From assembly GCA_028692715.1 (NCBI GenBank), contig JAQUWU010000015.1, forward strand, positions 1 through 64,000: a DNA stretch of 64,000 nt, read 5' to 3'. Position 1 is the first letter of the stretch. Each line of letters opens with the position of its first letter. This document shows, piece after piece, positions 3,435-15,571 of this stretch. The DNA comes from Paludibacter sp. GTDB lineage: Bacteria > Bacteroidota > Bacteroidia > Bacteroidales > Paludibacteraceae. The notes beneath the pieces were generated by a model. That model did no database searches, had not been told where the DNA came from, and worked only from the letters and a program-made list of their open reading frames with translations. Made by a program: the position numbers and the translations under genes.

Positions 3435-4493
3435 ATGATGAAACCAATTATTGCGCCAATAGATAGGAAGTTGTTAAAGGAAGAACTTTCTGCAGATAAA
3501 TATTTACGTCCTACAAATAAGGCGCACAATGAGATATATGTAATTACTGCCCATAATGCACCAAATGTAATGCTTGAAATTGGTCGGTTAAGAGAACTTT
3601 CATTTCGTTCAGGAGGTGGTGGTACCGGCGAAGAGATAGATACCGACAAATACGATTATATGGAAAAACCATATAGACAGCTTATAGTATGGGATCCAAT
3701 TGCAGAAGAAATTATTGGAGGATATCGTTATTTACCGGGTTGCGAAGTAGATTTTGATGAAGAAGGTCAACCTACATTTGTAATGTCTCATTTGTTTACT
3801 TTCAGTGAAAAATTCATAAAAGAATATATACCATTCACCATTGAACTTGGACGAGCATTCGTTCAACCTGATTATCAAACATCAAAAATGGGGACAAAAA
3901 GTCTGTTTGCACTTGATAATTTGTGGGACGGATTAGGAGCGCTAATTCACACGGTAAAAAACGCCAGATATTTTATAGGGAAAGTAACAATCTATGAACA
4001 TTATCCCGTGATTGCACGCGAATTGATCTACGAATATATGTTCAGGTATTTCCCTGATCCGGATAAAATGATACTTCCAAAAACTATAATTCATGTCAGT
4101 AAAGATAATGAAAAATTAGCTCGGAAAATATTTCTGGGAAATAATTCAACAGCTGATTATAAAACGCTACAGAAAGAAATAAGAGCAGTAGAAGAAACAA
4201 TTCCATCCATGTTTAATGCATATATCGGATTAACTGATACTATGCGGATGTTTGGGTCAATTTACGACAAAGAATTTGGAAATGTTTACGAAACCGGTAT
4301 TATGATAACCATGGCCGATTTGCTTGAAACAAAACGCAAACGTTATATTGAACCTTACAAAGAATACCTGCGTAAAATTTTGGAAGAAAGAAGAGTAGCT
4401 AAAAAATTAGCACGAGAAACAAAATTGGCCGAAAAGATGGCAAAAAAAATAACTAAAAAAGAAAAAAAAAAGCAGAAAAAAATAATTATATAA
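3435..4493 (+). CDS. GNAT-type N-acyltransferase, GlsB/hemolysin-like
   Basis: A 352-residue protein of the acyltransferase group related to ornithine/glycine N-acyltransferases. The signature is RELSFRSGGGGTGEEIDTD near residues 53-71, followed by a GGYRY strand and the FTIELGRAFV segment near residue 137. In Bacteroides, GlsB of this group makes N-acyl glycine from acyl-ACP, the first step of glycine (serine-glycine) lipid synthesis. I infer a similar lipid-amino-acid role; no adjacent O-acyltransferase (GlsA) is present here. The last 30 residues form a lysine-rich helix, which may bind membrane. Two ATGs occur in tandem (3435 and 3438). A strong terminator follows. Confidence 0.7.
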   Translation: MMKPIIAPIDRKLLKEELSADKYLRPTNKAHNEIYVITAHNAPNVMLEIGRLRELSFRSGGGGTGEEIDTDKYDYMEKPYRQLIVWDPIAEEIIGGYRYLPGCEVDFDEEGQPTFVMSHLFTFSEKFIKEYIPFTIELGRAFVQPDYQTSKMGTKSLFALDNLWDGLGALIHTVKNARYFIGKVTIYEHYPVIARELIYEYMFRYFPDPDKMILPKTIIHVSKDNEKLARKIFLGNNSTADYKTLQKEIRAVEETIPSMFNAYIGLTDTMRMFGSIYDKEFGNVYETGIMITMADLLETKRKRYIEPYKEYLRKILEERRVAKKLARETKLAEKMAKKITKKEKKKQKKIII

Positions 4494-7105: not shown

Positions 7106-7345
7106 ATGAGAGTAAGAAAAAATATTGCTACCAGCGAAGAAGGATTTCTTTTCAATCCAACTACTGGAGATTCATTCTCAACAAATGCCCTTGGAGCAGA
7201 AATATTATTATTATTAAAAAAAGACATTTCTAATAATGATGTTATTAATACCATCTGCGAAAAATACGATGTTGACAAATCTTTGTTTGAACGTGATTTT
7301 GAAGAATTTACTTTACAACTAAAAGATTATAGCATTTTAGAATAA
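7106..7345 (+). CDS. PqqD-family small protein (possible carrier or peptide chaperone)
   Basis: This 79-residue protein has the PqqD pattern: an N-terminal beta hairpin with GFLFNPTTGDSFSTNALGAEIL, then two helices with alternating hydrophobic residues ending in an LKDYSILE strand. PqqD proteins bind the leader peptide of ribosomal peptides and present it to modifying enzymes; free-standing members occur beside ATP-grasp enzymes. No radical-SAM enzyme or obvious precursor peptide is nearby. The last residue is glutamate, which recalls LysW-type amino-group carrier proteins, whose C-terminal Glu is loaded by an ATP-grasp ligase. LysW zinc cysteines are absent (only one Cys). The ATP-grasp gene follows after 28 bases. 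Family call firm, role inferred. Confidence 0.8.
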   Translation: MRVRKNIATSEEGFLFNPTTGDSFSTNALGAEILLLLKKDISNNDVINTICEKYDVDKSLFERDFEEFTLQLKDYSILE

Positions 7346-7373
7346 TAGTTTGATAGCACTTAGTTAAATCAAA

Positions 7374-8417
7374 ATGAAAAGAAAAATTGTAATAGCTGTA
7401 ACCGGTTTAAATGCCATTGACAGTCCCGGACCCGGTGTTGCTGTAGTGCGTGCCATAAGAGATTGTAAAGATTTCGATGTTCGCATTATAGGTTTATCGT
7501 ACGAATCGCTTGAACCTGGGTTATATATGCACGATATCATTGACAAAACATACCAGATCCCCTACCCTTCTGGTGGAACTGATAGTCTTTTGACTCGTTT
7601 GAAACACATTCATGAAATTGAAAATTTAGAAGTTATTATTCCTAATTTTGATGCTGAATTATTTAATTTCATTAAACTCCGAGAAACATTGAAAGCAATG
7701 GGGATCGCTACTTTTATGCCTGACATGAATCAGTTCGAAGCACGCGATAAAATTAATCTTCTCGAATTTGGGAGAAAATATGATTTTTATGTACCTGATG
7801 ATAAAATTGTTCATGAAATAAAGGAATTAAAAAATATCGGTGAAAAGTTTGAATATCCATTGGTTGTTAAAGGGAAATTTTACGATGCAATTATAGCTAA
7901 TACTTATGAACAAGCCGAAAAAGCATATTATAAAATTCAGGCTAAATGGGGCTTACCTATTATTGTTCAAAAATTTATTAAGGGAACAGAAATTAATATT
8001 GCCGCTTTAGGCGATGGCGAGGGTAATGCCATTAGCGTAATTCCTATGCGAAAATTATACATCACGGATAAAGGCAAAGCATGGGCAGGAGTTACGCTAG
8101 ATGATGATGAGTTGATAGAATTAGGCAGAAAGTTTGTAAAAGTTACCAACTGGCGGGGAGGTTGCGAACTTGAAGTTATGTTAACATCAGATGGCAAACC
8201 ATATATAATGGAAGTAAATCCACGTTTCCCAGCTTGGATTTATCTAACAGCTGCTGCAGGACAGAATCAACCGGCATTCTTAGTAAAAATGGCCTTGGGA
8301 GAAAAAGTTAAGCCATTTATTGATTACGAAGTGGGAAAAATTTTCATTCGTTATGCATGGGATTTAATAACCGACATTAGAGAATTTCACCAAATATCTG
8401 GAAACGGAGAACTATAA
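7374..8417 (+). CDS. ATP-grasp ligase, CarB/carboxylate-amine-ligase-like
   Basis: A 347-residue ATP-grasp enzyme. Residues 1-110 form the pre-ATP-grasp Rossmann region (IAVTGLNAIDSPGPGVAVVR). The ATP-grasp core has YPLVVKGKFYDA near residue 162, where Lys contacts ATP. IVQKFIKGTEINIAALGDG follows near 200, and the metal-binding ELEVMLTSDGKPYIMEVNPRFPAW ends the core near residue 285. Such enzymes activate a carboxylate as acyl-phosphate and join it to an amine or similar nucleophile. It lies directly after the PqqD-like gene and before a PLP decarboxylase, so it may ligate an amino acid to a small protein or to another metabolite. The substrate cannot be predicted; it is too short to be carbamoyl-phosphate synthase itself. 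Confidence 0.85.
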   Translation: MKRKIVIAVTGLNAIDSPGPGVAVVRAIRDCKDFDVRIIGLSYESLEPGLYMHDIIDKTYQIPYPSGGTDSLLTRLKHIHEIENLEVIIPNFDAELFNFIKLRETLKAMGIATFMPDMNQFEARDKINLLEFGRKYDFYVPDDKIVHEIKELKNIGEKFEYPLVVKGKFYDAIIANTYEQAEKAYYKIQAKWGLPIIVQKFIKGTEINIAALGDGEGNAISVIPMRKLYITDKGKAWAGVTLDDDELIELGRKFVKVTNWRGGCELEVMLTSDGKPYIMEVNPRFPAWIYLTAAAGQNQPAFLVKMALGEKVKPFIDYEVGKIFIRYAWDLITDIREFHQISGNGEL

Positions 8418-8424
8418 AAATATT

Positions 8425-8508
8425 ACCCCTAGCCCCTAAAGGGGAATTATATTACAACTATTAAAAAAACAATATATGACTAACTTCATTCCCCTTTAGG
8501 GGTTAGAG
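8425..8508. repeat. Inverted pair of CCCCTAAAGGGG palindromic repeats
   Basis: A CCCCTAAAGGGG palindrome (8433-8444) and its inverted copy CCCCTTTAGGGG (8491-8502), each with a related purine-rich flank (ctag/ttagag), bracket about 45 bases between the ATP-grasp and decarboxylase genes. This arrangement resembles paired REP/BIME elements. The pair could fold into one large hairpin in the transcript and affect expression of the genes on either side. Confidence 0.7.
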
Positions 8509-8531
8509 GTTGTCTTAATTAGGACAATATT

Positions 8532-9878
8532 ATGGAAAAAATTAGATACGAAAGACCATTAATAGTGAAAATGAACACGGGTCTGATGAATAAATTTGGA
8601 ACAAAAACTGAAAATGAGCCGGTTACACATATCGAAAGTGTTGGAGTAAAAACCTTGCTAAAACAATATGGTTCGCCACTTTTTGTCATTTCCGAAAAAC
8701 AAATCAGGAGAAATTATCAAAATGCAGTTCGGATTTTCAAAACCCGCTATCCAAAAGTTCAGTTTGCATGGTCGTATAAAACCAACTACATGAACGCAGT
8801 TTGCAGAATCTTTCATCAGGAAGGTTCTTGGGCAGAGGTTGTTTCAGGTTTTGAATATGATAAAGCTATAGGTAATGGCGTCCCGGGAAACAAAATCATA
8901 TTTAATGGCCCTGATAAAAAGGATGAAGATCTTATTAAAGCTTCAAAAAACAATTCATTGATTCACATCGATCATTATGATGAATTATATTCGTTAATCC
9001 GTTTGAGCGAAGAACATAACCTAAAACCACGAGTTGCCATTAGGGTAAATATGGATACAGGAATTTATCCAAAATGGGATCGTTTTGGGTTTAATTTCGA
9101 AAACGGACAAGCGTGGAATGCTTTAACACGGATCTTAAACTCCGAAAATCTGAATCTGGTAGGTATTCATTGTCATATTGGGACATTTATGCTTTCACCA
9201 AATGCTTATGCCATTGCAGCGCGGAATCTTTCTGAATTAGCCTGGAGCGTAAAAGAGCGATTTGGCAAAGTGATAGAATACATTGACTTGGGAGGTGGAT
9301 TCCCTTCTACAAATACATTGAAAGGCGCTTATTTACCCGGAACTGACACCGTACCTTCTATTGATCAATTTGCAGATGCTATTACAGATGTAATTCTTGG
9401 TTACGGATTTAAACAGAATGAACTTCCTTTGTTGATTTTAGAAACCGGACGTGCATTAATAGATGACGCAGGATATTTGCTTGGAAGTGTAATTGCAACT
9501 AAGCGGTTATCTGATGGACGACGTGCCACCATAATGGATTTTGGACTGAATTCTTTGTTTACTTCACTTTGGTACGAGCACAAAATTAGTCCGGCACAAA
9601 AACTGGGAAATCAAACAGAAGAAATGGTTATGTTCGGTCCGCTGTGTATGAATATTGATATTGTCAGGGAAAGTATTACCATGCCTATTCTTCAAAAAGG
9701 TGATCAGGTGGTGGTGCATAAAGTGGGTGCATATAATATGACTCAGTGGATGCAATTTATTACCTTACGTCCAAATATCGTTTTAATTGACAATGATAAC
9801 GAAACTCATGTTATAAGAAAAGCAGAAAGCTTAGAGTATATTGAACAATTGGAAGAAATTCCGAAACATTTAAAATAA
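8532..9878 (+). CDS. PLP-dependent fold-III decarboxylase (diaminopimelate/ornithine decarboxylase family)
   Basis: A 448-residue enzyme of the alanine-racemase-fold decarboxylases. The PLP Schiff-base lysine is K83 in AWSYKTN. The phosphate-binding glycine stretch is DLGGGFP near residue 256. ETGRALIDDAGYL near 305 corresponds to the EPGR motif, with Thr for Pro. GPLCMNIDIV near 368 supplies the Cys and Asp contributed by the second subunit. GAYNMTQWMQF near 396 replaces the usual GAY ending of LysA. The family decarboxylates diaminopimelate, ornithine, arginine or carboxynorspermidine. Divergent motifs and the ATP-grasp/PqqD context suggest a specialised substrate rather than the housekeeping lysine enzyme. 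Confidence 0.85.
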   Translation: MEKIRYERPLIVKMNTGLMNKFGTKTENEPVTHIESVGVKTLLKQYGSPLFVISEKQIRRNYQNAVRIFKTRYPKVQFAWSYKTNYMNAVCRIFHQEGSWAEVVSGFEYDKAIGNGVPGNKIIFNGPDKKDEDLIKASKNNSLIHIDHYDELYSLIRLSEEHNLKPRVAIRVNMDTGIYPKWDRFGFNFENGQAWNALTRILNSENLNLVGIHCHIGTFMLSPNAYAIAARNLSELAWSVKERFGKVIEYIDLGGGFPSTNTLKGAYLPGTDTVPSIDQFADAITDVILGYGFKQNELPLLILETGRALIDDAGYLLGSVIATKRLSDGRRATIMDFGLNSLFTSLWYEHKISPAQKLGNQTEEMVMFGPLCMNIDIVRESITMPILQKGDQVVVHKVGAYNMTQWMQFITLRPNIVLIDNDNETHVIRKAESLEYIEQLEEIPKHLK

Positions 9879-9898
9879 TAGTTCAAATAAAAAAATCG

Positions 9899-9925
9899 GA
9901 AGTAGAATTAATTTTTCTACTTTTG
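9899..9925 (+). promoter_or_regulatory. Hairpin overlapping an internal -7 box
   Basis: An imperfect AAGTAGA...TCTACTT hairpin (about 9900-9922) sits after the decarboxylase and runs into TTTTG; the same bases contain TACTTTTG (9918-9925), a TAnnTTTG box 31 bases before the next ATG. It could be a weak terminator, a promoter, or both, and marks a possible boundary inside the cluster. Confidence 0.4.
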
Positions 9926-9955
9926 ATTTAATATTATACTCATTGAGGACTTAAT

Positions 9956-12163
9956 ATGCGACAAAACAAAACCATAGAATCATTTCGTACCGACATTTTG
10001 CCGGGGATAATGAATAGTTATTCCATTATTTTCTTTCTTGATAACAAATTACTTGCCGGTACAATTATGATGGTAAGTTTTTTTAATTTCTGGAGTGGAT
10101 TTAGTGGATTAATGGCTGTAATTCTCACACTGTTTATTGGTCACACCATGCATCTTGATAAAGCAAGTTTGCGGAGTGGCGTGTACAGTTTTAATTCATT
10201 GCTAGCCGGAATAGGAATGGGTACATTTTTTGATCCCGGCTTTGTATTCTTCAGTTTACTGGCTTTGGCATCATTGCTTTCACTTTTACTTTCGGTGGGT
10301 CTAGGAGGTTGGTTTTATAAATACAAACTTCCTTTTTTGAGTATTCCATTTGTCATTACTTTTTGGTTTATCGTTTTACCTTCATCACATTACGAAAATT
10401 TAGGTTTAACACAACGAAGTATTTTTTGGATAAACGAAATGTATGCAGTAGGCGGAAACGGTTTACTAAAATTGTTCCAAATTATTGACACTTTACAGAT
10501 TAATGAATTAGTTAACATTTATTTAAGGTCAATTAGTTCCATCTTTTTTCAAAACAATTTAATAGCTGGATTGTTAATTACCATCGCTCTAATTTACAGT
10601 TCACGCATTATGTTCTCCTTGTCGGTTATTGGATTTCTATCAGCCTATTTATTTGCAATGTTTTCCGGATCGGAGGCAGCAAGCATAAATTATTATAATA
10701 TTGGAGCCAATTACATGATGGTAGCTTTTGCCATTGGTGGATACTTTACAATCCCATCCAAAAGTTCTTATTTGTGGACAGTTTTACTTATACCACTCAC
10801 ATCGTTGGTACTACTTTTCTTTTATAAATTACTGGGATACATTCAATTACCAGTTTTTTCATTGCCTTTTGCTTTTATTACAATTCTGTTCATCTATTTT
10901 CTTCGTCTACGTAGTAGATCAAACGGACTCGTGTTAACTCCCTTGCAACAAAACTCACCGGAAAAGAATTTATATTCCTACAATAACAACAAAGACCGAT
11001 TAGCTGGTTTGTACTATTTTCCTGTTCATTTACCTTTTATGGGTGAGTGGACTGTAACTCAGGCTTACGATGGAGAATTTACCCATATGGGTGAATGGAA
11101 GCACGCTTTTGATTTTATGATTACTGATAATGAAGGTAAAACGTATCGAAATGCAGGTTACTCGTTAAATGATTACTTCTGCTATAATAAACCAATTTTT
11201 GCACCTGCCGATGGATTTGTAGAAATAATTACTGATAATATTGATGACAATGAAATAGGAAATGTAAACACTACAAATAATTGGGGAAATAGTATTGTTA
11301 TCAGGCATTTGAATGGATTATACAGTCAGGTTTCGCACCTCAAAAAAGGCACATTTAAGGTGAATAAGGGAGATTATGTAAAACAGGGAGATATAATTGC
11401 TAACTGTGGTAATTCAGGACGTTCGCCCGAACCACATATTCATTTTCAAATGCAAATACTTCCAGTAGTTGGAGCAAAAACAATTGATTATCCTTTTGCC
11501 TATTATTTCAAACGAAATTCCGATAAAGATGAATTAATGCAATATAAAAAACCTGAAACCGGTGATAAAATTAGTAAAGTATCTTCCGATACATTTATTT
11601 TTAATGCGTTTAATATTTTACCTGACAGCTCTTTGTCAATGCGATACTCAAAAAATGGGTCGGATAATATAATGGAGAAATGGGATACATATACAGATGC
11701 TTACAATCAAAAATATATTTATTGTGCCGAAACAGAATCGGCTGCCTACTATGTAAATGATGGTTTTATGTTTTATTTTACAGCTTTTTACGGTGATAAA
11801 AAATCTTTGCTTTATTATTTTTATTTGTCAGCTTATAAACTGTTTTTAGGAAATGATATTAATGTAAAAATTTCAGATTCTTTTCCTTTGAGCATTGTAA
11901 ACAAAGCAAAATATCTAATTTGGTTAAATGACTTTATCGCACCATTTTACAATTTTATAAAAGTGAAATACTTATCGAAAATAATTTATACGGACAAAGC
12001 ATTGAAATTTGGAACGGTTCAATTTGGAACTTCAACTGAATTAAACTTAAAAAACAAAACAATCTATTCGAGTAATAGTGTAATTAGCATTACAGAAAAA
12101 GGGCTTACCAAATTTGAATACAATACAATTGACATTAAAATTAAAGCCGAATGTATAAAATAA
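9956..12163 (+). CDS. Urea transporter fused to an M23-family metallopeptidase
   Basis: A 735-residue fusion. Residues about 10-320 are hydrophobic with roughly ten membrane segments and resemble the UT urea-transporter fold, including the opening FRTDILPGIMNSYSIIFFLDN region. Residues about 350-520 form a LytM/M23 peptidase: HMGEWKHAFDFMI near 377-388 supplies His and Asp ligands, and the HxH ligand EPHIHFQM lies near 493. The rest (520-735) is an extra domain with no recognised motif. The peptidase should face the periplasm. Its presence on a small-solute channel is unusual; it may cut peptidoglycan or bind a peptide to gate or place the channel. The stop overlaps the next gene by 13 bases. 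Confidence 0.85.
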   Translation: MRQNKTIESFRTDILPGIMNSYSIIFFLDNKLLAGTIMMVSFFNFWSGFSGLMAVILTLFIGHTMHLDKASLRSGVYSFNSLLAGIGMGTFFDPGFVFFSLLALASLLSLLLSVGLGGWFYKYKLPFLSIPFVITFWFIVLPSSHYENLGLTQRSIFWINEMYAVGGNGLLKLFQIIDTLQINELVNIYLRSISSIFFQNNLIAGLLITIALIYSSRIMFSLSVIGFLSAYLFAMFSGSEAASINYYNIGANYMMVAFAIGGYFTIPSKSSYLWTVLLIPLTSLVLLFFYKLLGYIQLPVFSLPFAFITILFIYFLRLRSRSNGLVLTPLQQNSPEKNLYSYNNNKDRLAGLYYFPVHLPFMGEWTVTQAYDGEFTHMGEWKHAFDFMITDNEGKTYRNAGYSLNDYFCYNKPIFAPADGFVEIITDNIDDNEIGNVNTTNNWGNSIVIRHLNGLYSQVSHLKKGTFKVNKGDYVKQGDIIANCGNSGRSPEPHIHFQMQILPVVGAKTIDYPFAYYFKRNSDKDELMQYKKPETGDKISKVSSDTFIFNAFNILPDSSLSMRYSKNGSDNIMEKWDTYTDAYNQKYIYCAETESAAYYVNDGFMFYFTAFYGDKKSLLYYFYLSAYKLFLGNDINVKISDSFPLSIVNKAKYLIWLNDFIAPFYNFIKVKYLSKIIYTDKALKFGTVQFGTSTELNLKNKTIYSSNSVISITEKGLTKFEYNTIDIKIKAECIK

Positions 12164-13338
12164 CAATATTATTACTTTTCATATCGCTACCGTTTTATGC
12201 ACAACAGAATTATACTTTTGCTACTGTTGATAGTTTAAGTTATAATTATTTTGTAAATGGAAATTGGAACGAACTAATCAATATCAGTAAAGAGGCAGAG
12301 CATCAAAAAATAGATTTTAAATATCTACAACAGCGTGTGGGGTACGCTTACTTTATGAAAAAAGATTATTATAAAGCTATTAAGCATTATACTAAATCGC
12401 TTATATTCGATAAAACGGATGAAATTTCACATTTATATTTGTATTATTCTGCTCTGAATATTGGTGATGAAAGTATGGCACGCTATCATTTTTCCCTATT
12501 ATCACTGAAATTGCAAGAAAGTCTTGATACCAAAAAATTTAGTCTAATAAGTGCCATTGATTTGGAATACAATTATAAAATAAACAATTCTGAATTACGT
12601 ACAAATCCAAATTATACCAGAATAGGTGTAAATTCTTCACTTGGTTATAGGCTTAATTTATACCAAACTTTATCGAGATATAATCAAACAACTGATTATG
12701 TAGACATTACACAACAAGATGAATATTTTGGGTCCTTATCCTATTCTCTATTTGATAGAACCAACATCAATTTTGGGTATCACTATGTAAACACAAAAAT
12801 AACTACCGATCCTGATAGTTACTTATATCCGGGAAAAGTTTTATATGGAAAATTGAGTCAACGAATAAATCGGTTTGATATTGGAATAAATGCCTCTGTA
12901 TTTAATAGCGATTTGGCCAATGCAAGTCAATTAGGCATAGAAATTGGGTATGTAATTCCATCAAAGGTAAATCTGTATCTAAAGAGTTCCATCTATAATG
13001 TAAAAAGTACAACTTATGATTTAGAGGATATTGATACAGTTTCAACAAACAGTATAATATTCTCCCAAAAAATTGGTTTATTTGCTTTAAAAAATATTTG
13101 GTTAGAAGCATCGCTTACTCTTGGAAATCTGAATAACTTTGTAGATACAAATGGTATGTATTTATATAATTCAACAGATCCTACCACATTCAGAACTGGT
13201 ACTTCGGTTTTTTGGTATTTGAATAAACATCTTATTATATATTCAAACTATACTTTTGATCATAAATTAATAATTGACGACACACAAGAAAACTACAAAC
13301 AACATTCAATAACTGGAGGTATTATATGGAAAATTTAA
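12151..13338 (+). CDS. TPR plus outer-membrane beta-barrel protein (YaiO-like)
   Basis: A 395-residue protein with signal peptide (residues 1-17, FYAQ cleavage), a TPR-like helical part at about 20-130 (YAYFMKKDYYKAIKHYTKSLIFDKTDEISHLYL starting near 68 holds the clearest repeat) and a C-terminal half of alternating beta strands (about 140-395) with aromatic girdles. It ends ...SITGGIIWKI, as expected for an outer-membrane barrel. This matches the YaiO-type architecture. It overlaps both the transporter/peptidase gene upstream and the TPR gene downstream by 13 bases, so the three are translationally coupled. It may be the outer-membrane partner of the inner-membrane channel. Confidence 0.75.
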   Translation: MYKITILLLFISLPFYAQQNYTFATVDSLSYNYFVNGNWNELINISKEAEHQKIDFKYLQQRVGYAYFMKKDYYKAIKHYTKSLIFDKTDEISHLYLYYSALNIGDESMARYHFSLLSLKLQESLDTKKFSLISAIDLEYNYKINNSELRTNPNYTRIGVNSSLGYRLNLYQTLSRYNQTTDYVDITQQDEYFGSLSYSLFDRTNINFGYHYVNTKITTDPDSYLYPGKVLYGKLSQRINRFDIGINASVFNSDLANASQLGIEIGYVIPSKVNLYLKSSIYNVKSTTYDLEDIDTVSTNSIIFSQKIGLFALKNIWLEASLTLGNLNNFVDTNGMYLYNSTDPTTFRTGTSVFWYLNKHLIIYSNYTFDHKLIIDDTQENYKQHSITGGIIWKI

Positions 13339-13943
13339 AATTTTTAGTCATTTTTATTGCTCTCTTTGCAATAAATTCCTTGACAAGTTCACAAACAGCT
13401 AACAATCAGTCTATTTTCAATAAAAGTTACGAATACGAAAAGAGCTCAAACTATGCGGCTGCCATTAAGGAAATGAACTCAATATATAAAAGTAATGAGT
13501 ATTTTGTAAATATTCGGTTGGGTTGGCTGTATTATTTAAACAAAGACTACTCTAAATCAATAGAATTTTACAATAGAGCCATCAATCTGAAACCCTATGC
13601 AATAGAAGCCCGTTTCGGCTGCGTAAAACCCCTGAGTGCTATCGAAAGTTGGGAAAAAGTAAAATATCACTATTTACAAATTCTGAAAATTGACCCTCAA
13701 AACACAATTGCTAATTACTGGTTGGGCGTAATTTATTATAATCGAAAAGATTTTGATAATGCTTCAAAGTTATTCGAAAAAATAATTAATCTATATCCTC
13801 TGGATTATGAGTCTGTAATTATGCTGGGTTGGACAAAATTAAAGATGGGGAAAAAATCGGATGCTATAATATTATTTAATCATGCATTAAATTTACGTCC
13901 GAATGACAATTCTGCGTTAGATGGTTTGAAGCAAATAAAATGA
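13326..13943 (+). CDS. Secreted TPR-repeat protein
   Basis: A 205-residue protein with an N-terminal signal peptide (LFAINSLTSSQ) and at least four TPR motifs covering residues 30-200 (e.g. LGWLYYLNKDYSKSIEFYNRA near 60, YWLGVIYYNRKDFDNASKLF near 135). It overlaps the barrel gene by 13 bases and ends the operon; a bidirectional terminator follows. TPR proteins act as scaffolds. Its role with the barrel and the transporter-peptidase is inferred only from gene order. Confidence 0.8.
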   Translation: MENLKFLVIFIALFAINSLTSSQTANNQSIFNKSYEYEKSSNYAAAIKEMNSIYKSNEYFVNIRLGWLYYLNKDYSKSIEFYNRAINLKPYAIEARFGCVKPLSAIESWEKVKYHYLQILKIDPQNTIANYWLGVIYYNRKDFDNASKLFEKIINLYPLDYESVIMLGWTKLKMGKKSDAIILFNHALNLRPNDNSALDGLKQIK

Positions 13944-13987
13944 TGTTTTACTGAAACCACAAGACCGCTATTTAAGATTTATACATA

Positions 13988-14023
13988 AAAATCCCCGATT
14001 CAAATCATTGGACCGGGGATTTT
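13988..14023. terminator. Bidirectional terminator
   Basis: AAAATCCCCG (13988-13997) pairs with CGGGGATTTT (14014-14023). It lies between the convergent TPR gene and folA and has a T-run on both strands. Confidence 0.8.
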
Positions 14024-14025
14024 TG

Positions 14026-14520
14026 TTATTTCCTTTCGTAATAAGCGAAGCTGTAAGGATAAGGATTCTTTTGATCGGACTCGTGATTCTCCATACTCAC
14101 TTCATTCCATTCATCAAAATTAATTTCAGGGAAATAAGTATCAGCTAAAAAATCGTGATGTATCCAGGTAATGTACATTGAATCTACCTTGTCCACACAT
14201 TGTTTGTACACTGTAGCTCCCCCCATTATAAAAACATGATCTTCATGTTCACAAAGATAAATTGCATCTTCCAATGAATCGGCTTCGAAATAATGTTCAT
14301 TGACTCCTTCAGACATAATGGAAGTCAGTACGATGTTTTTTCTGTTAGGAAGCGGCCCATTTGCTAAACTTTCGAAAGTTCTTTTCCCCATTACAACTGC
14401 ATGACCTGTTGTAAGCTGTCTAAAATGCATTAAATCAGCCGGTAAATGCCAGGGTAAATTATTCGATTTCCCAATTGCATAATTATCGGCAACAGCGGCA
14501 ATAATTGAAATTTTTGACAT
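14026..14520 (-). CDS. folA: Dihydrofolate reductase
   Basis: A 164-residue DHFR that reduces dihydrofolate to tetrahydrofolate with NADPH. Typical motifs are IAAVADNYAIGKSNNLPWHLPADL (positions 5-28; the Met20-loop equivalent and the substrate-binding Asp), VVMGKRTFES (about 42) and VFIMGGATVYKQ (about 95, NADPH-binding Gly-Gly). It lies 257 bases downstream of thyA on the same strand, pairing the enzyme that regenerates tetrahydrofolate with the enzyme that consumes methylene-tetrahydrofolate. A separate -7 box at 14678-14685 suggests its own promoter with a long leader. Confidence 0.95.
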   Translation of the reverse strand: MSKISIIAAVADNYAIGKSNNLPWHLPADLMHFRQLTTGHAVVMGKRTFESLANGPLPNRKNIVLTSIMSEGVNEHYFEADSLEDAIYLCEHEDHVFIMGGATVYKQCVDKVDSMYITWIHHDFLADTYFPEINFDEWNEVSMENHESDQKNPYPYSFAYYERK

Positions 14521-14677
14521 AATCTGTTTGAATATTGATAATCAGGTGTATTTTCTAATTATCAGGTTTTTATTTAGCGTATTGGATAATTCTTTTTAAA
14601 ATAAATATAATTTGTAACAACAGATATTATTTCAAAAAAGATTTACACTAATCAGATGTCTGTATTCAGACGGGTTA

Positions 14678-14685
14678 CAAAAGTA
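14678..14685 (-). promoter_or_regulatory. -7 box TACTTTTG upstream of folA
   Basis: On the minus strand TACTTTTG fits the -7 consensus and lies between thyA and folA. It would give a leader of about 150 bases before the folA ATG. No -33 element is obvious. Confidence 0.45.
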
Positions 14686-14776
14686 CAAAAAAATATGGAA
14701 AATCAGTTCCGATTTTCCATATCAAATCTGTCATTAATGGATAAAAAAAATACGGCTATTATTTGTAATAATTACA

Positions 14777-15571
14777 TTAAATAGCCACTTCACCTTTAAT
14801 ATGTGGATGTGGGTCGTAATCAACCAGTTCAAAGTCGGAAAATTTAAAAGAAAAAATATCTTTCACATTTGGATTTATTAACATTGTAGGCAACTTCCGG
14901 GGTTCCCTCGAAAGTTGTAATTTAACCTGATCAAAATGGTTGGTATAAATATGTGCGTCACCCAATGTATGAACAAAATCACCTGCCTTTAAACCGGTTA
15001 CCTGTGCCATCATTTGTAATAGTAGTGCATAAGAAGCAATATTGAAAGGAACTCCCAAAAAGATATCGGCACTGCGTTGATATAATTGTAGGCTCAATTT
15101 CCCATCCGCCACATAAAATTGAAAAAATGCATGACAAGGAGGCAAATTCATATTTGGGATATCTGCTACATTCCATGCACTAACAATAATCCTGCGTGAA
15201 TCAGGATTGTTTTTAATGGTATTTACAACTTCAGTAATCTGATCAATATGTCCACCGTTATAATCGGGCCACGAACGCCATTGATAACCGTAAATATGTC
15301 CTAAATCCCCATTCTCGTCTGCCCACTCGTTCCAAATACGCACACCGTTTTCCTGAAGGTATTTTACGTTTGTGTCTCCATTCAAAAACCACAACAGCTC
15401 ATGAATAATAGATTTTAAATGCAATTTTTTAGTGGTAAGACAAGGGAAACCCTCTTCCATATTAAAACGCATTTGATGTCCGAAAACGCTGGTTGTTCCC
15501 GTTCCTGTACGGTCTTCTTTATGCACACCCTCGGCTAAAACACGTTGGAGTAAGTCTAAATATTGTTTCAT
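14777..15571 (-). CDS. thyA: Thymidylate synthase
   Basis: A 264-residue ThyA that methylates dUMP to dTMP with methylene-tetrahydrofolate. It has the full family length. The nucleophile is the Cys in [12 protein letters not shown] (about 146). The [19 protein letters not shown] segment (about 166-184) carries the phosphate-binding and folate-binding residues, and it ends in [10 protein letters not shown] with a C-terminal hydrophobic residue as in the family. It lies upstream of folA and downstream of the PorE-like gene on the same strand. Confidence 0.97.

Follow-up and report, generated by a model that had tools for sequence, protein, structure and literature searches.

Discrete RREs, the recognition elements of ribosomally synthesized and post-translationally modified peptides (RiPPs), are reported for lasso and LPP systems to bind a short [Y/W]xxPx[L/V/I/F/A] motif (PMC13381572). 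In LppB, D70 hydrogen-bonds the Tyr of the motif and N33 fixes the kink at its Pro; the D70A exchange weakens binding and N33A nearly abolishes it (PMC13381572). Lasso leaders are described as carrying Tyr at −17, Pro at −14 and Leu at −12, with residue −2 usually Thr and a Gly1 in the BsfA group (PMC10368454). A separate group of enzymes, the clade of pyridoxal 5'-phosphate (PLP) decarboxylases to which FigC belongs, is described as including members that act on conjugated substrates, among them citryl-amino acids, the peptidyl form of microcin C and a carrier that is glutamylated (PMC7857480). Here, we describe a six-gene operon of Paludibacter sp. that encodes a PqqD-family discrete RRE, an ATP-grasp ligase, a fold-III PLP decarboxylase, a urea-transporter-type channel fused to an M23 domain (UT/M23), a TPR and β-barrel protein, and a TPR protein. 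The genes occupy positions 7106–13943, all on the plus strand, of a 64,000-nucleotide stretch (assembly GCA_028692715.1, contig JAQUWU010000015.1, positions 1 to 64,000), which is referred to as the window.

The decarboxylase begins with a short arm that resembles a RiPP leader. That the discrete RRE docks on this arm of the operon's own decarboxylase is, in our assessment, well supported and highly probable. The fuller statement, in which the docking serves a ligase and a decarboxylase that work as a pair on a conjugated amino acid, is given a confidence somewhat above even. The PqqD protein would take hold of the arm at Y6-x-x-P9-x-I11 in the manner of RREs on lasso and LPP leaders, and would so keep the decarboxylase beside the ligase. 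The ligase, judged from its fold, may join an amino acid via its distal group to a partner molecule. The decarboxylase, judged from its active-site residues, would then strip the α-carboxylate of the conjugated amino acid, as BtrK, MccE, SbnH and FigC do. The amine product, or its envelope target, may be handled by the UT/M23, TPR β-barrel and TPR proteins, as their linkage would suggest. The features of the operon are as follows.

7106–7345, plus strand: PqqD-family discrete RRE, 79 amino acids, last residue Glu (open reading frame (ORF) list, Pfam, profile alignment)
7374–8417, plus strand: ATP-grasp ligase, PRK12767-like, 347 amino acids, conserved ExNPR motif retained (ORF list, family profiles)
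8429–8506, no strand: inverted repeat CCCCTAAAGGGGAAT / ATTCCCCTTTAGGGG, separating the ligase and decarboxylase genes
8532–9878, plus strand: fold-III PLP decarboxylase, 448 amino acids, CMNID motif; closest solved relative the FslC/FigC N-citrylornithine decarboxylase
8532–8600, plus strand: leader-like arm, codons 1–23 of the decarboxylase
8547–8564, 8592–8594 and 8598–8600, plus strand: arm sub-sites Y6-E-R-P9-L-I11, K21 and G23, respectively
9956–12163, plus strand: urea-transporter-type channel fused to an M23 (LytM-type) domain
12151–13338, plus strand: TPR and β-barrel protein, 395 amino acids, with a signal-peptide-like N-terminus and a modelled 14-strand outer-membrane barrel
13326–13943, plus strand: TPR protein, probably periplasmic, with a signal-peptide-like N-terminus judged by eye

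The ORF list and Pfam agree with the preliminary description of this stretch, which had noted a 79-residue PqqD protein ending in Glu, an ATP-grasp ligase 28 bases further on and a fold-III decarboxylase, all on one strand. It had treated these three genes as the set; all are present, but three more genes on the same strand belong to it. The TPR and barrel gene shares a few bases with the gene on either side, which is operon-like.

The PqqD protein scored 38.3 bits against PF05402 (cut-off 23.4) and belongs to the discrete-RRE family. TbiB1, TfuB1, PbaB1 and LppB were among its profile matches, with TbiB1 as the best PDB match (E 1.2e-13). In a profile alignment of the operon PqqDs, which was gap-free with one constant offset, D64, N27 and F68 aligned to Q79, G42 and F83 of PbaB1 (9x90), which are positions named in PMC13381572; through G42 and Q79 of PbaB1, N27 and D64 occupy the positions of LppB N33 and D70. 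The sole invariant columns among 35 aligned PqqDs, all from loci with a Tyr arm, were G13, F16, G21, N27 and D64. Because N27 and D64, the Asn and Asp of the RRE, are kept, the protein appears equipped to bind a YxxP ligand. Its role as a peptide binder is very likely, in line with the mention of peptide presentation by PqqD proteins in the preliminary description.

Relatives of the operon were collected by searching 395 Bacteroidota genomes with the ligase (E 1e-30) and fetching about 20 kb around each match, and 80 further loci were taken from the GTDB contig collection. The arm consensus was K-x-x-[YF]-E-[RSK]-P-x-[ILV]-x-[KR]-x-x-x-G-x-[MP]-N-K-[FY]-G, gap-free from the YxxP to the Lys. 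This pattern matched 113 of 114 decarboxylases; the sole miss, L140, is a split ORF whose larger piece was counted and whose 5' piece carries the pattern. As the pattern itself required the Lys, the invariance of this residue is seen in the near absence of misses and not in the tally. A [YW]xxPx[LVIFA] motif was found within the first 40 residues of 112 of the 131 decarboxylases, as against 18 of 618 other ORFs of at least 250 amino acids at the loci, and within the first 120 residues of 125 of the 131, some ORFs having been called too long. Around the arm Lys, K21 was present in 126/126, G23 in 124/126 and N20 in 96/126 sequences of a selected set. One locus, L067, is the same as the contig end of L066 and is counted in the arm-pattern, Tyr/Phe pairing and ligase-tree sets; the two lie at both ends of one contig (G124:C1) with identical operon genes, probably an unclosed circular overlap.

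The conservation of the arm is close to that of the folded enzyme, with a mean entropy of 1.26 for residues 5–23 and 1.15 for the domain, against 1.95 for the linker at residues 24–36. The arm is probably disordered, as residues 1–25 were modelled by AlphaFold2 with a predicted local distance difference test (pLDDT) score below 50, while the folded domain that follows was mostly above 85. PDB alignments of the decarboxylase begin near residue 28–41 or later, past the arm. Conservation of a segment with no predicted fold suggests a binding motif. Placed in the lasso-leader register, the arm has Y6 at −17, P9 at −14, I11 at −12, K21 at −2 and G23 at +1. Exchanging these leader residues in BsfA is reported to have changed little (PMC10368454), so the leader motif is not always essential.

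A concerted switch was observed between the arm and the cleft of the RRE. Among the 128 loci in which both proteins could be read, a Tyr arm accompanied PqqD D64 in 116 and a Phe arm accompanied Tyr or His at position 64 in 12, and no mixtures were found. Columns with a conservation of 90% or more among 111 Tyr sequences were compared with the 12 Phe sequences, leaving out L067 and the decarboxylases shorter than about 400 amino acids counted from the arm. Only Y6 of 171 such columns in the decarboxylase, and only D64 of nine in the PqqD protein, were switched in the Phe clade. By a crude estimate, which assumes one conserved column switched per protein, the random chance of drawing this pair is about 1 in 1500.

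Several observations weigh against the docking reading or its extension to the chemistry. The Phe arms all fall in one clade of the ligase tree (SH-like approximate likelihood ratio test, SH-aLRT, 81), so the switch is one joint event and not many. Clade-specific switches were also seen in the ligase (2 of 102 conserved columns) and in UT/M23 (2 of 80); the TPR protein had none in 25, for only four Phe-clade rows. A mutual-information scan between PqqD and decarboxylase, with the same sequences left out, placed the arm in 4 of the top 20 pairs against 1.0 expected, and in 13 of the top 200 against 10.4 expected; ancestry dominated the scan, which was also blind to Y6, since F, W and Y counted as one letter in it. 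Three Hymenobacter-type PqqDs (L169, L171 and L172) carry Ser in place of N27. Lastly, action of the ligase and the decarboxylase in sequence is argued from fold and linkage; the order suggested in the preliminary description, first ligation and then decarboxylation, remains the most sensible chemistry.

The decarboxylase scored 104.9 bits against Orn_Arg_deC_N and 47.6 bits against Orn_DAP_Arg_deC. Its best NCBIfam score was that of the FslC model NF041039 (235.5 bits, under the cut-off of 500), and the FslC/FigC N-citrylornithine decarboxylase was also its best PDB sequence match (E 2.1e-61). M373, beside the catalytic C372, and T344, in the specificity helix, were invariant in 57/57 aligned decarboxylases, and they stand in place of the LysA features, an acid after the catalytic Cys and a specificity-helix Arg. 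An identity as the housekeeping LysA, which the preliminary description had named as a refuting outcome, was rejected on these residues, on a score of 219 bits against the LysA model TIGR01048 (cut-off 297.9), and on a separate LysA-like protein in the same genome, on contig C15, which carries a CESSD motif where the window enzyme has CMNID. Besides the window enzyme, the genome holds three members of the decarboxylase family, the one on C15 and two on C83; we take the latter to be carboxynorspermidine and arginine-type decarboxylases.

By position, M373 corresponds to M355 of FigC. At this site, beside the catalytic Cys, FigC is described as having a Met in place of the acid by which a free side-chain amine is read, and as having another residue instead of the helix Arg found in diaminopimelate (DAP) decarboxylases (PMC7857480). 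From the placement of the enzyme in a clade with conjugated-substrate enzymes, together with M373 and T344, a conjugated amino acid is inferred to be the likely substrate. For turnover of an amino acid conjugated at its distal end, only the Cys+1 residue would speak.

The ligase scored 42.9 bits against PF15632 and 34.5 bits against PF02655. Its best family matches were PRK12767-like, which bears on the question of a graspetide synthetase for a profile set that held no graspetide model.

The co-occurrence of the genes, which the preliminary description had anticipated, was borne out. Ligase matches were found in 35 genomes, including an outlier (G369) at 28% identity, and decarboxylase matches at E 1e-80 fell in exactly the 34 non-outlier genomes. 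The gene set is thus spread over 34 of the 395 sampled Bacteroidota genomes and 27 of 171 genera, and a scan of the GTDB contig collection gave at least 562 confirmed relatives. Gene order was never permuted in 113 loci (L035–L149, without L069, an outlier of 28% identity, and L067, which repeats a contig end). The full order pqqD–ligase–decarboxylase–UT/M23–barrel–TPR was present in 64 of them, a recognisable copy of the barrel protein was missing in 20, and 29 showed fewer genes, many on short contigs. At L073, a gene for an OmpA/TSP3-repeat protein (13506–15056) lies between those for the decarboxylase and UT/M23, and L077 has a gap of similar size at this place. One locus, L129 (CALPQG020000174.1), is labelled Bifidobacterium breve; as its ligase and the one in a Bacteroidota genome (L162) are identical, the contig was probably mis-binned.

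An order-level scan found the ligase in 17 of 241 genomes. Of 22 further matching genomes 20 were fetched, with G461 and G670 left out. Two genomes of one genus, G586 and G643, had a ligase locus (L165 and L166) with neither pqqD nor decarboxylase alongside; pqqD, ligase, decarboxylase and UT/M23 each lay on separate contigs. The UT/M23 homologue was 38–39% identical, the G586 copy being read with one internal stop, and both the decarboxylase arm and PqqD D64 were kept. The genes persist together even where they are scattered, although the fragmentation of the two assemblies (810 and 430 contigs) calls for caution.

The envelope half of the operon was analysed through conservation and modelling. 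H377, D386, H461, H494 and H496 of UT/M23 were at least 97% conserved among 107 members; in view of what is typical of the M23 family, we take this His/Asp set to be a plausible metal site. The protein encoded at 12151–13338 gave weak TPR matches and was modelled at pLDDT 93 as TPR helices followed by 14 strands. The nearest PDB folds were OmpG, FadL and CymA; PelB and cellulose synthase subunit C ranked lower. Since the template modelling (TM) scores, normalised to the query, were at most about 0.5 among the rows listed, the call is limited to a porin-like barrel with TPR. A different protein of 280 amino acids, with no Pfam match, takes the place of the barrel protein in a group that we guess from its genes to be Ignavibacteria-like. 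No function was found for the set of a urea-type channel–M23 fusion and a TPR porin.

The upstream partners varied, with a GNAT acetyltransferase at 24 loci, a LytS-type kinase with associated proteins at 21, an AraC-type regulator at 14, and proteins tailed for the type IX secretion system at 13. An example of the AraC-type regulator (L144, 7855–8493) has a weak heavy-metal-associated domain. The FslC likeness and this regulator hint at a function with siderophores or metals, which is not claimed, as the domain scored 16.8 bits against a cut-off of 24.8 in the one protein scanned. Anti-phage defence was set aside after PADLOC gave one weak match of 12.9 bits, to the TPR protein, and a mobile element after the ligase found no match in plasmid and phage collections at E 1e-20. 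The inverted repeat at 8429–8506 has no part in the mechanism; since the ligase and decarboxylase genes abut in many relatives, it resembles a small insertion. Just two copies of the CCCCTAAAGGGGAAT-type repeat were present in the window, with up to two mismatches allowed. An Rfam scan of the window gave no match at the gathering threshold. Further upstream lie genes for a VimE-type deacetylase (796–2109, 610.4 bits against a cut-off of 440) and a glycine N-acyltransferase GlsB (3435–4493, 414.8 bits against 300), both apparently unrelated to the operon.

Four rival explanations were weighed. A possible but tentative one makes the decarboxylase carry its own substrate, with K21 of the arm as the acceptor. 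The RRE would present K21 to the ligase, which would attach the amino acid via its distal carboxylate, and the arm would then swing the α-amino acid into the decarboxylase site of its own chain or of a dimer partner. The Lys stands at a fixed spacing from the YxxP (113/114, and every member of the selected set) although the arm is predicted to be disordered; it falls on residue −2 of lasso leaders (PMC10368454) and is flanked by conserved N20 and G23. BtrK is described as decarboxylating a carrier-bound amino acid and MccE a peptide-bound one (PMC7857480). A release enzyme is not evident, and a conserved Lys could equally bind the ligase or some other surface; moreover, because the Lys at this distance was part of the pattern used to find the arm, any exception would have appeared as a miss, of which there was one, explained above. 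If K21 were loaded, a metabolic enzyme would contain a RiPP-like carrier-peptide cycle, one that is widespread in Bacteroidota and tied to a channel–peptidase–porin envelope module.

It is less probable, and in our view unlikely, that the operon belongs to a genuine RiPP pathway with a precursor encoded elsewhere, the arm merely competing for the RRE or regulating it. RREs normally bind precursor peptides, and the same genome holds an RRE set on contig C3 (L182, G000:C3 near 51634; 1107–2573) with a 60-amino-acid ORF containing YIAPEV, a 91-amino-acid PqqD-like ORF and a 299-amino-acid ORF with a GFSGVGKST P-loop, which resembles an HprK-like kinase. This set looks, by its sequence, like an ordinary precursor-type RRE set. 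Around the operons, 4531 operon-strand ORFs of at least 25 amino acids within 4 kb were searched; 250 of them, outside the core genes, carried a permissive motif, and clustering these gave no recurring small YxxP peptide. The largest cluster comprised 12 membrane histidine kinases; the others were two groups with four members each, all envelope or secreted proteins, and pairs. A hidden small precursor near the operon was rejected for lack of evidence in this clustering. The preliminary description was accordingly right that no precursor peptide lies nearby, but a probable peptide-like ligand is present as the N-terminus of the decarboxylase; no lasso-type precursor with leader and core was found, and the motif recurs on the decarboxylase instead. 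The arm is moreover conserved phylum-wide, which a mere competitor need not be. Neither a B2 protease nor a lasso cyclase appeared in the profile scan of the window genes or was seen among the recurring neighbours, only some of which were profiled. No radical-SAM enzyme was present among the families recurring around the loci, where no search aimed at such enzymes was made, and no acyl carrier protein among the six operon genes or the profiled recurring neighbours.

We consider it quite improbable that the arm is an ordinary structural N-terminus with a coincidental YxxP, the PqqD protein serving something else. The shortness of the arm and the variable N-termini of decarboxylases with this fold speak for this reading; against it stand the motif rate (112/131 against 18/618), PDB matches that start only after the arm, conservation despite predicted disorder, and the joint switch of Y6 and D64. 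Least probable is the model of the preliminary description, in which the PqqD protein, from its terminal Glu beside an ATP-grasp ligase, could serve as an amino-group carrier of the LysW kind with this Glu as the loading site. The peptide-binding cleft of the protein is preserved and the conservation test failed, the tail of 14 to 23 residues beyond D64 ending in Glu in only 23 of 130 proteins, in Asp in 21, in Ala in 20, and in other residues thereafter.

If docking on the arm is correct, the reach of RREs would extend beyond RiPP precursors to leader-like tags on enzymes, through which they could organise other pathways. One survey placed about 60% of RREs in fusion with, or close to, a well-characterised RiPP protein (PMC12710340); part of those with no obvious RiPP context would be recast. 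An undescribed biosynthetic pathway of Bacteroidota would also be opened to experiments, for which three soluble proteins, a single short peptide and one defined exchange pair could be used.

Compared with known systems, the operon shares parts with several. A search of open-licence papers returned these parts only, and a leader motif on an enzyme together with an ATP-grasp ligase and envelope proteins was not found there. In LysW/ArgW carrier systems, a small protein is encoded next to an ATP-grasp ligase, whereas the operon PqqD lacks a conserved terminal Glu. Graspetide synthetases likewise pair an ATP-grasp ligase with a partner protein, and an RRE-like domain is reported in MirC (PMC13097080); the operon ligase, by its PRK12767-like matches, appears to be from a different ATP-grasp family, graspetides come without a decarboxylase, and no such peptide is present in the operon. 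The butirosin proteins BtrI/BtrJ/BtrK offer a fold-III decarboxylase described as acting on a carrier-attached amino acid (PMC7857480), but the operon has no acyl carrier protein, it has an RRE and envelope proteins, and its decarboxylase matches BtrK with only 91 bits. FslC/FigC have the Cys-Met motif and the specificity-helix Thr and Tyr in common with the window decarboxylase, which has an extra arm and, as operon partner, an ATP-grasp ligase and not an NIS synthetase. Among ATP-grasp enzymes, we take BtrJ to be the loader of the butirosin system. The discrete lasso and LPP RREs (TbiB1/FusB1, PbaB1, LppB) agree with the operon in the PqqD fold family, the Asn and Asp of the cleft, and [YF]xxPx[ILV] in the same register; here, it is not a small precursor but an enzyme of about 450 residues that carries the motif, and the recurring genes include no B2 protease or lasso cyclase. 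RRE–leader recognition and conjugate decarboxylases are known kinds, and the apparently new element is the leader motif placed on an enzyme in a pathway that also has an ATP-grasp ligase and envelope proteins.

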